This document shows, one piece after another, positions 15,123 through 51,584 of a stretch of 64,000 bases of DNA. Position 1 is the first letter of the stretch. Each line of letters begins with the position of its first letter. Made by a program: the position numbers and the translations under genes. Origin of the DNA: Parvularcula lutaonensis (GTDB lineage: Bacteria; Pseudomonadota; Alphaproteobacteria; Caulobacterales; Parvularculaceae); contig NZ_BMXU01000001.1 in NCBI RefSeq assembly GCF_014651915.1, positions 868,001 through 932,000 of the forward strand. The letters are read 5' to 3'. The notes under the pieces were generated by a model. The model saw only the letters and a program-made list of their open reading frames with translations. It did not search any database and was not told where the DNA came from.

Positions 15123-15156
15123 GTTCTTGTCCTGTTCTGATGTTCTGCTATTGTTC
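15123..15156 (+). promoter_or_regulatory. Two tandem LexA (SOS) operators, GTTC-N7-GTTC twice
   Basis: GTTCTTGTCCTGTTC at 15123-15137 and GTTCTGCTATTGTTC at 15142-15156 both match the alphaproteobacterial LexA direct repeat GTTC-N7-GTTC exactly, 19 bases start to start. A possible promoter, TTGTCC (15127-15132), 16-base spacer, TATTGT (15149-15154), lies inside them, so LexA would block it. The ATG follows 5 bases after the second box and no SD is seen, suggesting a leaderless mRNA. Confidence 0.85.
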
Positions 15157-15161
15157 CGATC

Positions 15162-16256
15162 ATGGGACACCCGGCGCACCTCAACTTCAAGCCGACCCAG
15201 GCCTCGAAGAAGCGGGGCCGCGGAGCCTTCTCAAACGCTTCGGGGCGCTATGAGAGCGAGGTTCGCGAGGCTGCCGACGATGGCTGGGAAGCTGACGAAC
15301 CCCTGCCATTGAAAACGGAGGTCGTGCAGGAAGCGGCGAAGAAGATCGTCACCTTCAACGACAGCCCGTTCGTCGGCTTCGACCGCTCGATCAATCCCTA
15401 CCGGGGCTGCGAGCACGGATGCGTCTACTGTTTCGCTCGACCGACCCACGCCTATATGGGCCTGTCCCCCGGCCTCGATTTCGAGAGCAAGCTCTTCGTC
15501 AAACCGGGCGCACCGCAGCTCCTGCGCAAGGAACTCTCCGCCAGGCGCTATAGGGTCCGTCCGATCGCCATCGGCACGAATACCGATCCGTACCAGCCGA
15601 TCGAGCGGCGGCACGAGATCATGCGCCAGGTGCTCGAAGTGCTTCTTGCGTTCCGGCACCCCGTCAGCATTCTGACGAAGTCTCACCTCATCCTCCGCGA
15701 CCTCGATGTATTGCAGGAGATGCAGAAGCACGATCTCGTCCGCGCGATGATCTCGATCACCACGCTCGACGGTGCCCTCGCCCGCACGATGGAGCCCCGC
15801 GCGCCGACGCCGAAGAATCGGCTGGCAGCCGTGAAGGCCCTTGCCGATGCGGGCATCCCCACCGGCACGGTCCACGGGCCGATGATTCCGGGGCTTTCCG
15901 ACCATGAACTCGAGCGGCTGATGCAGGCGTCGCGCGAAGCTGGCGCGACGTTCACCGCCTACACCCTCCTCCGCCTGCCGCAGGAGGTCGGGCCGATCTT
16001 CGAGGAATGGCTCGAAAGCGCCGCGCCGACGCGGAAGGCAAAAGTGCTGAACCGCATCCGCGAGATCAATGGCGGAAGGGTTTACGACGTCGCTCGCTCC
16101 CGCGGCGGTGGACCGAAGGGCGCCTATGCCGAGATGCTCGACATGCGCTTCCGCGCCGCGAAGAAGCGCTACGGCTTCACCGAGATGCCGGTGCCGTCTT
16201 CGGAGCATTTCCGCGTTCCCGGATCAGGCCCGCCCCAGCCAGACCTCTTTGGATAA
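15162..16256 (+). CDS. PA0069/Rv2578c-type radical SAM protein, SplB-like, SOS-controlled
   Basis: 364 residues. The radical SAM cluster motif CxxxCxxC is in NPYRGCEHGCVYCFARPTHAYMG. The flanking IGTNTDPYQPIERR, VSILTKSHLILRDLD, TLDGALARTMEPRAPTPKNRL and VHGPMIPGLSDHELERLM are typical of the PA0069 family, relatives of spore photoproduct lyase whose substrate is not established. The N-terminal 45 residues are basic and probably disordered. Two perfect LexA boxes upstream imply induction by DNA damage, so a role in DNA repair is a reasonable inference. rnhB follows 42 bases later and may share the transcript. Confidence 0.92.
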   Translation: MGHPAHLNFKPTQASKKRGRGAFSNASGRYESEVREAADDGWEADEPLPLKTEVVQEAAKKIVTFNDSPFVGFDRSINPYRGCEHGCVYCFARPTHAYMGLSPGLDFESKLFVKPGAPQLLRKELSARRYRVRPIAIGTNTDPYQPIERRHEIMRQVLEVLLAFRHPVSILTKSHLILRDLDVLQEMQKHDLVRAMISITTLDGALARTMEPRAPTPKNRLAAVKALADAGIPTGTVHGPMIPGLSDHELERLMQASREAGATFTAYTLLRLPQEVGPIFEEWLESAAPTRKAKVLNRIREINGGRVYDVARSRGGGPKGAYAEMLDMRFRAAKKRYGFTEMPVPSSEHFRVPGSGPPQPDLFG

Positions 16257-26322: not shown

Positions 26323-28263
26323 TTACGGGATGGGGCACTCGAGGCAGCGGACATAGATGCCGTTGGGATCATCGAAGCTGCGCTGGAACCGCAGTTCATC
26401 GTCAATCAGCTTGGCCGCCGCACCGAGGGTGGTGCGCTCGAAGCCCGTGCGGCGCGAGACGAAGAGCTCGTCATCGTCCGAGATCAGGCCGTACGCCTGG
26501 GCTTCGCCCGCGAGGCTTTCGAGGAAGAGTTCGAAGCGGGTCTTCTCCTTGATGAGGCCGACAACGTCCCACTCATCAAGGCCGGCCGCCTTGGCCGCCG
26601 CAGCGATCGCGTCCGGCAGGCCGCCGAATTCATCGACAAGCCCACGCTCCTTGGCGTCCGAGCCGATCCAGACTCGGCCTTGGCCGATCTCGTCCACCCG
26701 TTCGAGGCTCAGATCACGACCCTCGGCCACCACGGTGAGGAACTCCTCATAGCCATCCTCGATATTGAGCTGGAGGATCGTCCGCAGCTCTTCGGGCAGC
26801 TCGGCCAGCGGGATGCCGCGGATCGAGGACAGGGGCGAGGTGCCGACACCATCGACATTGACCCCGACGCGCGCGGCCAGCTTTTCGAAGGTGGGCAGGT
26901 AGCTGAAGATGCCGATCGAACCCGTGATCGTGGTCGGCTGGGCAAAGATCCTGTCAGCCGGGGCCGCGATCCAGTAGCCGCCCGATGCAGCCAGCGAGCT
27001 CATCGAGACGATGACCGGCTTGCCGGCTTTCTTGATCGCGAGAAGCTCGTCGCGGATGACCTCCGAAGCGAAGGCGGAACCGCCGGGACTGTCGACGCGC
27101 AGCACGACGGCGGCGATGTCATCGTCCTTGCGGGCTTCGCGAAGCTGCTTGGCAACGTAGGTGCCCGAAGCAACGCCCGGCTCCTGCGGACCGTCGATGA
27201 TCGCGCCCTCGACGGTGACCACGGCGATGTTCTTGACGTCTTCGCGGTCCTGCGGCGACTTGATGCCGATCTTGTACTTCTTGAGCTTGACGGTGTTCAG
27301 CTCGCCCTCGTCGTTTTCGCCGACGATGTCCTTGATGAACTGGCGCTGGGCTTCACGATCGGCCAGGTCATCGACATAGCCGCCATCGAGGATCGCCTGG
27401 GCGATGTCGCCGCCAGCCGCTTCGAGGCGGCTGCTGAACTCGTTGGCGAAGGCAGCGGTCGCGCCCGGCGTGAAGCTGCGGTTCTCGTCGACGCGCGTGG
27501 TGTAGCTGTTCCACAGGCCATTGAGATAGGTGAGGTTAGCTTCCTTCGCCTCCGGCGACATGCCATCGCGGAGCACCGGCTCGAGCGCCGACTTGAACGT
27601 GCCGACGCGGAAGACGTTCACGGACACGTCGAGCTTCTCGAGCATCGAGGCGTAGTAAGTCCGGAACGAGCCGAAACCGGTGAAGAACAGCATGCCCTGA
27701 TCGTGCATCAGAACCGTGTCGGCCTCGGAGGCGATCATGTACTGGTTCTGGTCGTAATAATCGCCGACAGCCACGACCCGCTTGCCGCTTTCGCGGAAGT
27801 CTTCGATCGCATCGGCCAGGATGTGGGCCTTGGACAGGTAGGCGTCCGGCACGACCAGCCCGCCGAGGTCGAGGACCAAAAGCTGGATGCGGTCGTCGTT
27901 CTTTGCATGTTCGATCACGCGAATCAGCTCGTGGACGCTGACCTGACCGACCGAACCGCCGCCAAAGGCTTCCTGGAGTGCCTGTTCGAACGGATCCTGT
28001 TCAGGAGCGTTTTCCGACAGCACGCCGCTCGGGTTGAACACGAGAGCGGCGCCCTCAGGGACTTTCAAGGACGGGCCGTCCTCGTTCTTGCCCTTCATCT
28101 GGTCGCCGAAGCTGCCGAGGACAGACAGGAGCACGGCAAAAACCATAATGAAAAGAAGAGCCTGCAGGAACAGCGCACCGCCCACCACGACCTTCGCGAG
28201 GCCCCGGAAAAACTGCCAAACTGTCAATCGCGAGCGTTCCTGCCCGCCTACGTAATCGGTCAA
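26323..28263 (-). CDS. sppA: Signal peptide peptidase SppA, 67 kDa type
   Basis: 646 residues from TTG 28263, supported by GGGAGG 5 bases upstream. One N-terminal membrane segment (residues about 28-52) anchors two tandem protease domains, as in the long E. coli type. The first half holds the catalytic Lys in RVGTFKSALEPVLR; the second holds the nucleophile Ser in SMSSLAASGGYWIAAPADRIFAQPTTITGSIGI. It degrades cleaved signal peptides in the inner membrane. Divergent from moxR across 183 bases. Confidence 0.95.
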   Translation of the reverse strand: MTDYVGGQERSRLTVWQFFRGLAKVVVGGALFLQALLFIMVFAVLLSVLGSFGDQMKGKNEDGPSLKVPEGAALVFNPSGVLSENAPEQDPFEQALQEAFGGGSVGQVSVHELIRVIEHAKNDDRIQLLVLDLGGLVVPDAYLSKAHILADAIEDFRESGKRVVAVGDYYDQNQYMIASEADTVLMHDQGMLFFTGFGSFRTYYASMLEKLDVSVNVFRVGTFKSALEPVLRDGMSPEAKEANLTYLNGLWNSYTTRVDENRSFTPGATAAFANEFSSRLEAAGGDIAQAILDGGYVDDLADREAQRQFIKDIVGENDEGELNTVKLKKYKIGIKSPQDREDVKNIAVVTVEGAIIDGPQEPGVASGTYVAKQLREARKDDDIAAVVLRVDSPGGSAFASEVIRDELLAIKKAGKPVIVSMSSLAASGGYWIAAPADRIFAQPTTITGSIGIFSYLPTFEKLAARVGVNVDGVGTSPLSSIRGIPLAELPEELRTILQLNIEDGYEEFLTVVAEGRDLSLERVDEIGQGRVWIGSDAKERGLVDEFGGLPDAIAAAAKAAGLDEWDVVGLIKEKTRFELFLESLAGEAQAYGLISDDDELFVSRRTGFERTTLGAAAKLIDDELRFQRSFDDPNGIYVRCLECPIP

Positions 28264-47704: not shown

Positions 47705-47739
47705 CGCTCGACCTCCCTCTTGCAGTTCCTTTCAAGACG

Positions 47740-47754
47740 GAACATTATGCGAAC
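47740..47754 (-). promoter_or_regulatory. LexA (SOS) operator abutting the start codon
   Basis: GAACATTATGCGAAC at 47740-47754 is the reverse complement of GTTC-N7-GTTC, an exact match to the alphaproteobacterial LexA box. The ATG begins at the next base. A possible promoter, TTGCAG (47720-47725), 17-base spacer, CATTAT (47743-47748), lies under it and predicts a leaderless transcript. No SD is visible. LexA bound here would block RNA polymerase at the -10. Confidence 0.85.
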
Positions 47755-49005
47755 ATGAGTATCTCCGAGAAGACGATCTCCAAGCTTCGCGTGCTTGCGG
47801 ATGCGGCCAAATACGATGCCTCCTGCGCCTCGTCAGGCAGCACGAAGCGCGACAGCCGCGATGGCAAGGGGGTCGGCTCGGTCGAGGGCATGGGCATCTG
47901 CCACGCCTACGCGCCCGATGGCCGGTGCATCAGCCTGCTGAAGATCCTTCTCACCAATTCCTGCATTTTCGATTGCGCCTATTGCATCAACCGCAGCTCT
48001 TCCTCCGTGGAGCGCGCCCGCTTCACCCCGCGGGAGGTCGCCGACCTCACCCTCAATTTCTACAAGCGCAACTATATCGAGGGTCTTTTCCTCAGCTCAG
48101 GGATCATCCGCTCGCCCGATTACACGATGGAACAGATCGTCGAGGTCGCGCGAATACTGCGCGAGGAGTACGACTTCCGCGGCTATATTCACCTCAAGAC
48201 GATCCCCGAGGCCGCGCCCGAGCTGATCGAGGCCGCTGGCAGGCACGCCGACCGCGTGTCGATCAATGTCGAACTCCCCTCCCGCAAGTCCCTGAAAGCG
48301 CTCGCGCCTGAGAAAGACCGTGACGGCATCGAGGGTGCCATGGCGAAGATGCGTGAACGGATCGATGCCTTCAAGGCGGACAAGACCCGCCGGGCAAGGA
48401 AACCGCTCTTCGCCCCCGGCGGCCAGTCGACCCAGATGATCATAGGCGCTGACGACGAGAAAGATGCCAGCGTCCTGCGCACGGCGACGGACCTTTACAA
48501 CCGGCACCGCCTGCGCCGCGTCTACTATTCCGCTTATTCACCGATCCCCGATGCCAAGCCCGGCATGCCCGCCCAGAAACCGCCGCTGGTTCGCGAGCAC
48601 AGGCTCTACCAAGCCGACTGGCTGACACGTTTCTACGGCTTCCAGCCCGATGAGATCATCTCCACCATGGAGAACGGGATGCTCGACCTCGCCACGGATC
48701 CTAAGCTCGTCTGGGCGCTCAAGAACCAGGGCTTCTTCCCGATCGACGTCAACCGGGCGACGAAGGAGCAGCTCCTGCGTATACCCGGCGTCGGCACGAA
48801 GGGCGTTGCCAAGATCATTGCCGCCCGCCGTCACGGGGCGCTCCGTTATGACGACCTCGCGAGGATCGCGGCGAGCATCCGCAAGATCAGTCCGTTCGTG
48901 ACAACGCCCGATTGGCGTCCTACATCGCTTCTCGATTCAGGTGCTCTGGAGGCAAGAATGCGAAAGCCTGCCGAGCAGCAGGACCTTTTCGCGGTGGCGG
49001 CATGA
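47755..49005 (+). CDS. UDG-linked radical SAM protein (putative DNA modification/repair), SOS-controlled
   Basis: 416 residues. The N-terminus MSISEKTISKLRVLADAAKYDASCASSGS is the normal start of this family (known as rSAM_link_UDG). The cluster motif is LLTNSCIFDCAYCINRSSSS (CxxxCxxC). The C-terminal third has tandem helix-hairpin-helix DNA-binding turns (IDVNRATKEQLLRIPGVGTKGVAKIIAARRHGALRYDDLARI), implying action on DNA. The family is named from its association with DUF4130/uracil-DNA-glycosylase genes, seen here too. The product reaction is unknown. Its TGA overlaps the next ATG (ATGA). Confidence 0.94.
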   Translation: MSISEKTISKLRVLADAAKYDASCASSGSTKRDSRDGKGVGSVEGMGICHAYAPDGRCISLLKILLTNSCIFDCAYCINRSSSSVERARFTPREVADLTLNFYKRNYIEGLFLSSGIIRSPDYTMEQIVEVARILREEYDFRGYIHLKTIPEAAPELIEAAGRHADRVSINVELPSRKSLKALAPEKDRDGIEGAMAKMRERIDAFKADKTRRARKPLFAPGGQSTQMIIGADDEKDASVLRTATDLYNRHRLRRVYYSAYSPIPDAKPGMPAQKPPLVREHRLYQADWLTRFYGFQPDEIISTMENGMLDLATDPKLVWALKNQGFFPIDVNRATKEQLLRIPGVGTKGVAKIIAARRHGALRYDDLARIAASIRKISPFVTTPDWRPTSLLDSGALEARMRKPAEQQDLFAVAA

Positions 49006-49322
49006 GCAGCGGACGATTTCTCGAGAACACGACCGACGAGCTTTTTGACTGGTGCATGGTGGTTCTGGAAAACGCCTACGGCTTCTACGCAGAGCGTTTC
49101 CCTAACCTGCAGCCGCTGACCGACCAGTACGAACGCCAGCGGGACCTGCTCGAGAAGACCCGTTCCAATGACGACCTGCGCGGGATGCGCATCCTGTCGG
49201 TGGACTTCTTCGACGCAACCTCACGGGCGCATCACGACCTCGTCGCCCGCGTGAACGACGCGCTGGTCAGCCGCTTCGGACCGGACACCGCGCTGATCCC
49301 CACCCGTGATGAGCGCGCCTGA
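49002..49322 (+). CDS. Unrecognised 106-residue protein between radical SAM and UdgX genes
   Basis: 106 residues, MSSGRFLENTTDELFDWCMVVLENAYGFYAERFPNL... The ATG overlaps the radical SAM stop (ATGA at 49002-49005), and its own stop overlaps the start of the UdgX gene by 14 bases, so all three are translationally coupled. The sequence looks all-alpha and soluble, with one Cys and amphipathic helices (PLTDQYERQRDLLEKTRSNDDL, SRAHHDLVARVNDALVSRFG). I do not recognise a family. The context makes an accessory role to the repair pair likely. Confidence 0.75.
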   Translation: MSSGRFLENTTDELFDWCMVVLENAYGFYAERFPNLQPLTDQYERQRDLLEKTRSNDDLRGMRILSVDFFDATSRAHHDLVARVNDALVSRFGPDTALIPTRDERA

Positions 49323-50745
49323 ACGCATCGTCTCCCTTTCATCCGACGATGACCTTCAGGCCTGGAAGCGCGAGGCCCGCGCACTCCTCAAGGAAGGTGT
49401 CCATCCCGACAGCGTTGTCTGGCGTGTCGGTGGTGAAGGGGATCTCTTCGCCAGCGAGCTCGGCGGAACCTACGCTCCGCCTGCGGAGAAGGTCTCGATT
49501 CCGCGCAAGGCTGCAAAACTGGTCGAGACGGCGCTCCACCATTCTGGCTCGGGGCGCTTGGGGCTTCTTTATCGCTTTCTCTGGCGCGCCCAGCGTGACC
49601 GCTCGCTGCCGGACAACATGGCTGACCCCGACACACTTGCTGTCCACCGCCTGGAAAAAGCCGTGCGGCGCGACGCGCACAAGATGCACGCTTTCGTCCG
49701 CTTCCGGAAGGTTGGGGAGGACGATGGGCGCGAGCGGTATGCTGCCTGGTTCGAGCCTGACCATCACATCGTCGAGCGCGAGGCGCCTTTTTTCGTCCGT
49801 CGATTCGCCAATATGGATTGGGCCATCGTGACGCCGCGAAAGACAGCGATCTATTGGGGCGGCGAGGTGTTCTTCGCCGAAGGAGGCCGCCGCGAGGATG
49901 TTCCGGCGGAGGACGCTTTCGAGGATGCCTGGCGCGCCTATTACGCCAGCATCTTTAACCCTGCGAGGATCATGACCGATGCGATGCGCGCCGAGATGCC
50001 GAAGAAATACTGGAAGAACCTTCCCGAGGCGGCGCTCATTCCCGAGCTTCTCGAGCAGGCTCCGGCACGGGTCGCGGTGATGAACGCCCGCGCCGCCGCT
50101 GACGACACGGCCCGCCACACATCGAGAATGCTCCGCGTGGAGCCGGGTCACAACAGCCTCGAAAGCGTCCATGACGCCATCCGCCGTTTCCATGCGGAGG
50201 AACTAGGGGACGCCGTCACGAAACCCGTCCCCGGCGAAGGTCCGCCGGATGCCAATCTGTTCTTCATCGGCGAACAACCGGGCGATCAGGAAGACATCAC
50301 AGGCCGTCCCTTCGTCGGGCCTGCGGGCCAGCTCTTCGATCGCTTCCTGCAGGCGGCTGGCATTGACAGGTCTTCCGCCTACGTGACGAATGCAGTCAAG
50401 CGCTTCAATTTCATCGAGCGCGGGAAGCGCCGTATCCACCAGACCCCGAAGGCCGGCGAGATCGACATTTGGGCGCCTTTCCTGATGCAGGAGCATCGCC
50501 TTGTGCAGCCCAAGGTGACGGTCACGCTCGGCGCGACCGCCCTGCGCGGCTTCTTCGGCAGGCCGGTCAAGCTGTCGGAAGTCCGCGGCGAAACCATTCC
50601 GCTGCCGGAGGAATTGGGTGGCGTCTGCGTGCCCACCTTCCACCCTTCCTATCTCTTGCGGATCCAGGACGAAGGCCAACGTGCGATCGAAGAACGAAAA
50701 TTCGTTGCGGACCTTGAAAAGGCACGCGAGCTGGCCTTCGCTTGA
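49309..50745 (+). CDS. DUF4130-UdgX fusion, uracil-DNA-capturing protein
   Basis: 478 residues from ATG 49309; a GTG one codon earlier is possible. Residues about 35-250 are DUF4130 (LGLLYRFLWRAQRDRSLPDN, RRDAHKMHAFVRFRKV, FVRRFANMDWAIVTPRKTAIYWGG). Residues about 285-478 are a family-4-like uracil-DNA glycosylase fold with GEQPGDQEDITGRPFVGPAGQLFDRFL at 321 onward and PTFHPSYLLR near the end. The KRRIH motif (373-377, H377) marks the UdgX subfamily, in which this His forms a covalent bond to the uracil-stripped DNA. Third gene of the SOS-headed operon. Confidence 0.93.
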   Translation: MSAPERIVSLSSDDDLQAWKREARALLKEGVHPDSVVWRVGGEGDLFASELGGTYAPPAEKVSIPRKAAKLVETALHHSGSGRLGLLYRFLWRAQRDRSLPDNMADPDTLAVHRLEKAVRRDAHKMHAFVRFRKVGEDDGRERYAAWFEPDHHIVEREAPFFVRRFANMDWAIVTPRKTAIYWGGEVFFAEGGRREDVPAEDAFEDAWRAYYASIFNPARIMTDAMRAEMPKKYWKNLPEAALIPELLEQAPARVAVMNARAAADDTARHTSRMLRVEPGHNSLESVHDAIRRFHAEELGDAVTKPVPGEGPPDANLFFIGEQPGDQEDITGRPFVGPAGQLFDRFLQAAGIDRSSAYVTNAVKRFNFIERGKRRIHQTPKAGEIDIWAPFLMQEHRLVQPKVTVTLGATALRGFFGRPVKLSEVRGETIPLPEELGGVCVPTFHPSYLLRIQDEGQRAIEERKFVADLEKARELAFA

Positions 50746-50748
50746 AGC

Positions 50749-51048
50749 GTGACCGAGGAAACCGCCCGTCTCGACAAATGGCTCTGGTGCGTTCGCATCT
50801 ACAAGACGCGCGCACTGGCGGCGCAGGTCATCTCGGGCAAGAGCCCGCGCATCACCCGCGATGGACAGACCATGCGCACGGACAAACCGGCCTTCAAGCT
50901 CAGGATCGGTGATACTGTGACAGTGATGCGCGGCCGCCAGCTCTTTGTTCTCGAAGTTTTGAACCTACCTGACAGGAGGGTCTCGGCGCCCGAAGCGCGG
51001 ACCTGTTATGTGAACCATGCCGCCGAGGAGGAGCAGCCCGATGCTTGA
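50749..51048 (+). CDS. S4-domain RNA-binding protein, HslR-like
   Basis: 99 residues from GTG 50749, only 3 bases after the UdgX stop. The S4 fold is clear: ARLDKWLWCVRIYKTRALAAQVISGKSPRITRDGQTMRTDKPAFKLRIGDTVTVMRGRQLFVLEVL. HslR (Hsp15) members bind stalled 50S subunits carrying nascent chains after stress. The position continues the repair operon, but this gene also occurs in other contexts in alphaproteobacteria, so a link to DNA repair is not required. The 3' end overlaps the TerB gene by 8 bases. Confidence 0.88.
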   Translation: MTEETARLDKWLWCVRIYKTRALAAQVISGKSPRITRDGQTMRTDKPAFKLRIGDTVTVMRGRQLFVLEVLNLPDRRVSAPEARTCYVNHAAEEEQPDA

Positions 51049-51487
51049 CCGCCTGTTCAAGAGCTTTGCGAAAGACAGGGGCGAGGAAACGCCAGACGAG
51101 GATGCCCTCCCCCGCGCCGTCGCTGCCCTGCTCGTCGAAGCCGCCAGGGCCGATGAAGAGTACACGGACGAAGAACGCGGGTTGATCGACCGCATTCTGA
51201 TGGGACAGTTCAGACTGTCGGCCGAAGGTGCAGCCGATCTCCGCGCCAGGGCTGAAGCCGCGCAGGCGGAGGCAAATGACCTCTACCAGTTCAGCCGCGT
51301 GGTGAAGGATGCCCTCGACCGCGACGGCAAGATGCAGCTTGTCGAGGATATGTGGCGGGTGGTCCTTACCGATGAAGAACGCGACCCGCACGAAGAGATG
51401 GTGATCCGCAGGCTGATCGGCCTCATCCATCTCGAGGACACGGACAGCACCGCCGCAAGGCGCCGTGCCGAGGCTTCGGCGGAATAG
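51041..51487 (+). CDS. TerB-family protein
   Basis: 148 residues from ATG 51041, inside the end of the S4 gene. The TerB-like helical bundle is seen in EDALPRAVAALLVEAARADEEYTDEERGLIDRILMGQFRLS and LVEDMWRVVLTDEERDPHEEMVIRRLIGLIHLEDTD, with conserved acidic residues that bind metal in TerB. The family is named for tellurite resistance, but most members work in general stress or membrane-associated roles. It is the last gene of the five-gene run. Confidence 0.86.
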   Translation: MLDRLFKSFAKDRGEETPDEDALPRAVAALLVEAARADEEYTDEERGLIDRILMGQFRLSAEGAADLRARAEAAQAEANDLYQFSRVVKDALDRDGKMQLVEDMWRVVLTDEERDPHEEMVIRRLIGLIHLEDTDSTAARRRAEASAE

Positions 51488-51558: not shown

Positions 51559-51584
51559 AAAAGGCGCCCGGAGGCGCCCTTTCC
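51559..51584 (-). terminator. Intrinsic terminator after the cyclophilin pair
   Basis: On the minus strand, GGCGCC TCCG GGCGCC is followed by six T residues, a good terminator 19 bases beyond the stop of the second cyclophilin gene. On the plus strand the tail is only CTTTCC, so it acts less well for the TerB operon. Confidence 0.8.

Follow-up and report, generated by a model that had tools for sequence, protein, structure and literature searches.

We analyzed a 64,000-nucleotide stretch of the genome of Parvularcula lutaonensis (contig NZ_BMXU01000001.1, positions 868,001 to 932,000; hereafter, the window), in which five open reading frames (ORFs) lie on the same strand at 47755-51487, all at the positions given by an earlier first-pass annotation. 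They are predicted to encode a radical SAM protein with a helix-hairpin-helix (HhH) region, a protein of 106 amino acids (aa), a fusion of DUF4130 and UdgX domains, an S4-domain protein and a TerB-like protein (Table 1). The radical SAM gene meets the gene of the 106-residue protein in an ATGA overlap, and the latter overlaps the fusion gene by 14 nucleotides (nt) if the fusion starts at the ATG at 49309; a GTG at 49306 is also possible. A gap of 3 nt separates the end of the fusion gene (50745) from the GTG of the S4 gene (50749), which in turn ends at 51048 and overlaps the TerB gene, with its ATG at 51041, by 8 nt. The first-pass annotation had described five tightly joined genes behind a LexA-type box, and all ORFs and junctions were confirmed as claimed. 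A terminator scan of the region found four sites of the kind seen 3' of the TerB gene, versus 2.7 in shuffled sequences, and that stem-loop is weak when taken alone.

Table 1. Features predicted at the five-gene locus, in coordinates of the window
Feature	Coordinates	Strand	Remarks
Weak promoter-like elements TTGCAG (47720-47725), 17 nt, CATTAT (47743-47748)	47720..47748	+	Read by eye
Predicted LexA box GAACATTATGCGAAC, GAAC-ATTATGC-GAAC (GAAC-N7-GAAC)	47740..47754	+	Directly abuts the ATG of the radical SAM gene
Radical SAM/helix-hairpin-helix protein	47755..49005	+	TIGR03916, 416 aa; CX3CX2C = C70, C74, C77; plus invariant C24, C49, C58
106-aa protein	49002..49322	+	Matches no known family; predicted four-helix bundle
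DUF4130 (TIGR03915)-UdgX (TIGR03914) fusion	49309..50745	+	478 aa; UdgX half without the presumed Fe-S ligands
S4-domain protein, Hsp15-like but under cut-offs	50749..51048	+	GTG start, 99 aa
TerB-like protein	51041..51487	+	PF05099, 148 aa
Terminator-like stem-loop 3' of TerB	51563..51578	+	Sequence scan; weak alone

The GAAC-N7-GAAC motif alone is common, with 113 occurrences in the 2.95-Mb genome versus 74 for a reversed control. Its position was therefore compared among related loci, defined as the best 80 of 588 loci from named genomes found by a DUF4130-UdgX profile search. In 78 of these 80 loci, a radical SAM gene precedes the fusion in the same orientation, and its upstream region is readable in 76. 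A box is located within -75 to +15 of the start of this gene in 75 of the 76 readable loci, compared with 7 of 488 other mechanically called ORFs of the same loci and none for the reversed pattern. Because the box recurs in this way before the orthologous gene, we do not attribute its position to chance. Among the alphaproteobacterial loci of this set, the box precedes the pair throughout those that are readable. Within the family, an exact box stands before the radical SAM gene in seven of nine carriers, including the same place in genomes G053, G054 and G056. In 40 of the 75 loci, the distance from the end of the box to the first in-frame start codon, as picked by script, is 0-3 nt. Such spacing points to a leaderless transcript whose promoter would have the box over its -10 region. 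In the window, the CATTAT element falls inside the box; compared with the sigma-70 consensus, TTGCAG matches at 3/6 positions and CATTAT at 4/6.

The sole readable locus without the alphaproteobacterial box is in a genome of the gammaproteobacterium Woeseia. There, two boxes of the Escherichia coli type, CTGT-N8-ACAG, are located at -68 and -49. One CTGT-N8-ACAG box, CTGTATAAATATACAG, occurs at -29 on a Caballeronia plasmid (Betaproteobacteria), and an Azospirillum plasmid locus has GAACATATTAAGAAC. Three kinds of box were searched for in two Clostridia, and neither showed an exact match. In proteobacteria, regulation of the pair thus appears to be kept, while the motif follows each lineage's own LexA. 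A GAAC-type motif also ends 26 nt before lexA in the P. lutaonensis genome. The direct repeat (GAAC-N7-GAAC or GTTC-N7-GTTC) by which passages of PMC8565304 define the alphaproteobacterial LexA motif is present at the predicted promoter and shared with lexA. The SOS control proposed in the first-pass annotation is borne out to the extent that box position can predict regulation.

Boxes elsewhere in the window and genome were also inspected. Two GTTC-N7-GTTC boxes at window positions 15123-15156 immediately precede a radical SAM gene of the PA0069 family (15162-16256; 465.5 bits, cut-off 360), which is probably a second SOS radical SAM gene of the same window. A box at 27898 was rejected as a chance occurrence, since it lies well inside the longest ORF there and no gene start is seen nearby. 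Outside the window, two LexA-type boxes are located just upstream of an ImuA-like gene (L103, about 1411-2067; G000:C1:121600-125200; 47.3 bits, cut-off 150). Two more lie around the start of a DNA-glycosylase-like gene of the MutY/DR2438 type (L109, 1510-2308; G000:C1:775100-778200), which scores far under the cut-offs.

The radical SAM protein scores 565.7 bits against TIGR03916 (rSAM_link_UDG; cut-off 343.5), and the DUF4130 half of the fusion scores 202.4 bits against TIGR03915 (cut-off 112.25) and 143 bits against PF13566 (cut-off 27). In an even sample of 385 genomes of the class, the radical SAM gene was found in 25 and DUF4130 in 25; either gene occurs in 26 genomes and both in 24. The single carriers are G106 (fragmented; the match ends at model position 277 of 414) and G243 (DUF4130 only, and the weakest match). 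Caulobacter vibrioides, the species of C. crescentus NA1000, is among those with DUF4130. Of 62 genomes of the family Parvularculaceae, nine carry the radical SAM gene, and exactly these nine carry the fusion. Family scores and co-occurrence in the class therefore uphold the pairing that the first-pass annotation had called known.

In the window, the DUF4130 partner stands two genes downstream of the radical SAM gene. Among the 78 related loci with an upstream radical SAM gene, the gap exceeds 500 bp in nine. When 16 longer-gap loci were read, the intervening ORFs were mostly on the opposite strand or spurious-looking, and no recurring third gene was found. Same-strand intervening ORFs of more than 100 aa occur at two of these loci only (L166, 161 aa; L180, 145 aa) and are unlike each other. 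No upstream radical SAM gene was seen at the other two of the 80 loci, L165, which begins at a contig end, and L169.

The core pair is already known, and SOS control of such a pair is already in print. Passages of PMC8565304 assign an operon of two genes, COG1573 and COG4277, to a predicted LexA-type network of Bacteroidetes and cite studies of Verrucomicrobia and Alphaproteobacteria (Caulobacter) for SOS regulation of such a system. Like that operon, the window combines a radical SAM protein with a uracil-DNA glycosylase (UDG)-type protein in one LexA-placed operon; it differs in having a DUF4130-UdgX fusion without iron-sulfur (Fe-S) ligands, three further genes and a box that abuts the start codon. 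Aravind et al. 2013 (PMC3765255) likewise associated DUF4130 with SplB-like radical SAM photolyases and uracil-DNA glycosylases. Theirs is a gene-neighborhood prediction, and the accessible portions of the article mention neither the N-terminal cysteines nor the cluster loss described subsequently.

These sources also bear on the possibility that the pair is a direct-reversal enzyme, similar to spore photoproduct lyase (SPL), that acts on UV-type lesions and to which uracil is irrelevant. The association of DUF4130 with SplB-like photolyases points in this direction, as does a statement in PMC8565304 that SplB radical SAM proteins are SOS-regulated in several species. We nonetheless consider this explanation to have little probability, given that the matching NCBIfam model is TIGR03916 with no SPL model among the matches, that no radical SAM relative in the Protein Data Bank (PDB) was found by sequence, and that the UdgX half retains uracil-excision residues.

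The radical SAM motif CX3CX2C is present in all 85 aligned rows of the radical SAM protein (82 after removal of three rows whose genomes were already present under another id), and C24, C49 and C58 are likewise invariant in 85 of 85. These three additional cysteines are kept in the two Clostridia and in one Betaproteobacterium, where the next gene is of the TIGR03915 or UdgX type. All three are absent from a Gemmatirosa relative (35% identity) that scores 302.7 bits against TIGR03916, under the cut-off of 343.5, and whose next gene is histidine-kinase-like and not DUF4130. This one case, a relative with neither the cysteines nor a DUF4130 neighbor, fits a function shared with DUF4130, and possible roles for the cysteines are to hold an auxiliary Fe-S cluster or to serve as hydrogen donor. 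Because the partner in the two Clostridia is TIGR03915 alone, with no UdgX half (285 residues in L213 and 244 in L214), UdgX looks like an add-on to a radical SAM-DUF4130 core, and we would place the core chemistry in these two components.

The UdgX half of the window protein scores 245.7 bits against TIGR03914 (cut-off 189.95) and keeps the sequences GEQPG, TNAV, KRRIH and HPSYLLR. In 89 aligned fusion rows, the positions that correspond to E52, Q53, N91, H109, H178 and R184 of Mycobacterium smegmatis UdgX (MsmUdgX) are kept without exception. A structural model of the UdgX half superimposes on M. smegmatis UdgX at 2.0 Å over 199 columns, with 41% identity. The model of the entire fusion has a pTM of 0.55, which leaves the relative placement of its two domains uncertain; in a structure search with the whole fusion, the 50 matches listed are UDG folds wherever they are recognizable.

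Most aligned fusions also have a CxxC, followed by a histidine (in KHFKF) and a further cysteine. We take these to be the places where UdgX and family-4 glycosylases hold a 4Fe-4S cluster, with the identity of the presumed ligands drawn from the alignment. The window protein instead has F, E, R and W at the four places, and its UdgX half contains one cysteine overall. Across the 89 rows, the pattern is CCHC in 72 and lacks all three cysteines in 17, six of which keep the histidine; no partial set occurs. Without the same three duplicates, 16 of 86 distinct fusions are cluster-free, a frequency that derives from best-scoring loci and is not representative; relative DT_81 (L125) is one of the cluster-bearing ones. 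In a maximum-likelihood tree, for which the ligand columns were kept in the alignment, the cysteine pattern needs four changes, and the starred branches force four. Read as losses, these would be four losses of the cluster: in Parvularcula; in a group of Sphingorhabdus, Parasphingorhabdus, Parasphingopyxis and Sphingomonas quercus; in relatives of Roseomonas and Belnapia; and in Pacificimonas with one Sphingomonas metagenome-assembled genome. Because the presumed ligands (CxxC...H...C) are missing, we call the UdgX half of the window protein a cluster-free variant and not a typical UdgX; four other cluster-free fusions also pass the TIGR03914 cut-off.

Loss of all four presumed ligands could mean that the UdgX half is a remnant, either in decay or of structural use alone, and that only the radical SAM protein and DUF4130 work. 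The Clostridial partners that have no UdgX half at all agree with this. However, the catalytic positions are all kept in 16 of 16 cluster-free rows, and the domain is retained although the loss recurs in four places of the tree. Sequence conservation in Parvularcula speaks on both sides. Within a cluster-free trio, each of the three pairs shows higher conservation in the UdgX half than in DUF4130 (74.7-83.9% versus 67.6-74.2%), which argues for a working protein. In the two comparisons made with the cluster-bearing G056, it is the UdgX half that shows the lower conservation (68.4 and 63.2%, versus 75.4 and 67.3% for DUF4130), as a remnant might; to us, this argues for a shift when the cluster went. 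Overall, we think it quite improbable that the domain is a remnant.

Passages of PMC10359453 define motif A, the R-loop and motif B of UdgX. GEQPG and KRRIH are present in the window protein, and its motif B, HPSYLLR, is one residue off the published HPS(S/A)(L/V)(L/V)R. Its motifs (GEQPG, TNAV, KRRIH and HPS-x-LLR) and fold thus resemble those of M. smegmatis UdgX (PDB 6ajp and others). In contrast, the same source describes M. smegmatis UdgX as a 4Fe-4S protein, whereas the window protein, a fusion with DUF4130, has none of the presumed ligands. No cluster-free UdgX was found described in the titles and opening abstract lines listed by literature searches or in passages of PMC10359453 and of the review PMC9266487, which is not proof of absence, and a word search of the available text of the UdgX paper PMC10776899 returned none of the cluster terms. 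Within these sources, a recurrent cluster-free UdgX has not been found described before. Separately, in addition to the fusion, a further UdgX that appears to stand alone is present in two Parvularcula genomes (L089 in G055 and L090 in G051).

The gene between the two members of the pair is much less constant. The 106-residue protein has no family match; its AlphaFold model is a confident helical bundle, and a structure search with this model gave no informative matches. Its family is present in 2 of the 62 family genomes, and the one convincing relative, in G056, occupies the same slot with 27% identity. In G051, G053, G054 and G055, the slot instead holds a charged protein of roughly 135-145 residues (L012, 6321-6731; L014, 6194-6628; L091; L092), and in G057, G010 and G011 it holds nothing. 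The idea that one family occupies this slot was rejected, since the charged protein is not similar to the 106-residue protein by BLAST. Distant relatives of the charged protein (L207-L212) occur in 7 of the 385 class genomes, with no box at the six loci read. In G124, G339 and G381, which have both such a relative and the radical SAM gene, the two lie on different contigs. Two of the distant relatives are near a GapR-like gene, as recognized by eye.

The last two genes form a pair of their own. TerB scores 105.1 bits against PF05099 (cut-off 24.4), and the S4 protein is under the cut-offs of both Pfam (17.9 of 22.8) and the Hsp15 model (42.9 of 148). Among the 62 family genomes, S4 is present in 60 and TerB in 53, and the two are at most 400 bp apart in 42 of the 53 genomes that have both. 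Of the 44 family genomes in which both genes occur and UdgX does not, 35 also have them as a close pair, as in the window. At 10 loci read by eye where S4 is not beside UdgX, a helicase-like ORF of roughly 1000 residues precedes S4 in seven. Elsewhere in the family the S4-TerB pair is thus mostly not beside UdgX, whereas it follows UdgX immediately in six genomes of the genus to which the window belongs. The fusion directly precedes S4-TerB in six of the nine family carriers (G000, G051, G053, G054, G055 and G056) and does not adjoin it in G057, G010 and G011, and UdgX is beside S4-TerB only in Parvularcula.

In G051 and G053, the radical SAM gene is on a different contig from the block of middle gene, UdgX, S4 and TerB, and this block has its own exact LexA-type box that ends 4 nt before the ATG of the middle gene. 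Boxes are located at both places in G054, the second ending 3 nt before the middle gene; G055, G000 and G056 have no second box. Because UdgX, S4 and TerB stay together, with their own LexA box when apart from the radical SAM gene, S4 and TerB are likely to be co-expressed in the SOS response. Such co-expression does not imply a shared chemistry, and we infer that the two genes are probably passengers.

The first-pass annotation had proposed that all five genes constitute one damage-response machine, in which the 106-residue protein, S4 and TerB are accessory subunits. The tight gene overlaps favor this idea, as do the persistence of UdgX-S4-TerB in six of nine carriers and the separately boxed blocks of G051 and G053. 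On the other hand, S4 and TerB are found near the radical SAM/UdgX pair in 2 of the 80 related loci, both from Parvularculaceae (G054 and G056, which also belong to the family survey). They commonly form a close pair in genomes without UdgX, and the middle gene, whose family is rare, is swapped for an unrelated one or absent. We therefore regard a five-gene machine as improbable. The annotation had suggested a comparison of gene order across Alphaproteobacteria and had named poor conservation of the small gene, S4 and TerB beside the pair as grounds for refutation; outside Parvularcula, such poor conservation is what the comparison finds. What stands of the single-module proposal is the position of the SOS box, the pairing of the radical SAM gene with DUF4130-UdgX, and the linkage of UdgX with S4-TerB in most family carriers; the accessory roles are not supported, and the three extra genes look like local additions beside a known but poorly understood pair.

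In our judgment, the best explanation, to which we assign a probability of roughly two in three, is a LexA-repressed operon with a two-protein repair core in which a cluster-free UdgX catches lesions, the other genes being mostly passengers and the 106-residue gene a fast-evolving local insert. This explanation builds on what was observed of the order of the genes, the recurrent box, the nearly constant pairing, the retained catalytic residues and the missing cluster ligands, and its account of the transcript start, the substrate and the division of labor would be as follows. Since the box overlies the promoter, inactivation of LexA by RecA would let transcription begin exactly at, or close to, the start codon of the radical SAM gene. 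The enzyme encoded there would grip DNA with its HhH region and carry one SAM cluster and possibly a second cluster on C24, C49 and C58, and jointly with DUF4130 it would act chemically on the base or the sugar. Joined to DUF4130, the UdgX half would find and remove uracil or a similar damaged pyrimidine and then stay covalently on the abasic sugar via H377, to hold and mark the site for its partner; in this lineage, it would act without an Fe-S cluster. S4 and TerB would be an older gene pair now on the same transcript.

Several observations weigh against this explanation. At the proposed transcript start in the window, no site exceeded the threshold of a promoter scan. Two of the family carriers depart from the pattern: before the radical SAM gene, G055 has only a box with one mismatch, and G051 has none. 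When 20 stretches around other boxes of the genome, picked by eye from those listed, were read, an SOS-type gene was recognized at three (lexA and the ImuA-like and DNA-glycosylase-like genes) and at none of the other 17. Moreover, two of the six genus genomes that keep UdgX with S4-TerB have no adjacent radical SAM gene, and this linkage could mean that S4 or TerB matters. Finally, no solved structure in the PDB resembles the radical SAM half by sequence beyond the HhH tail, and for this reason its substrate is guessed from UdgX.

Passages of PMC10359453 describe the precise physiological role of UdgX as largely unknown and propose that UdgX protects abasic sites, with RecA-dependent paths or proteases resolving the complexes. 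Because of the operon context, the radical SAM-DUF4130 unit may do part of this resolving. A more specific and, in our estimate, rather unlikely version is a two-step device in which the cluster-free UdgX excises the base and traps the abasic site, and a two-cluster radical SAM protein together with DUF4130 repairs or releases it.

UdgX serves as a uracil-mapping tool, and the data presented here tie it, via DUF4130, to a radical SAM enzyme fronted by a LexA box across Alphaproteobacteria. The additional invariant cysteines provide a concrete feature of an uncharacterized radical SAM family, and we found no description of their role in the sources consulted. Natural cluster-free versions of UdgX allow a direct test of whether the Fe-S cluster is needed. 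If the two-step device exists, these versions would show that uracil can be captured without the cluster, and the covalent UdgX complex would be a repair intermediate and not a dead end, which would answer the question of what UdgX is for.

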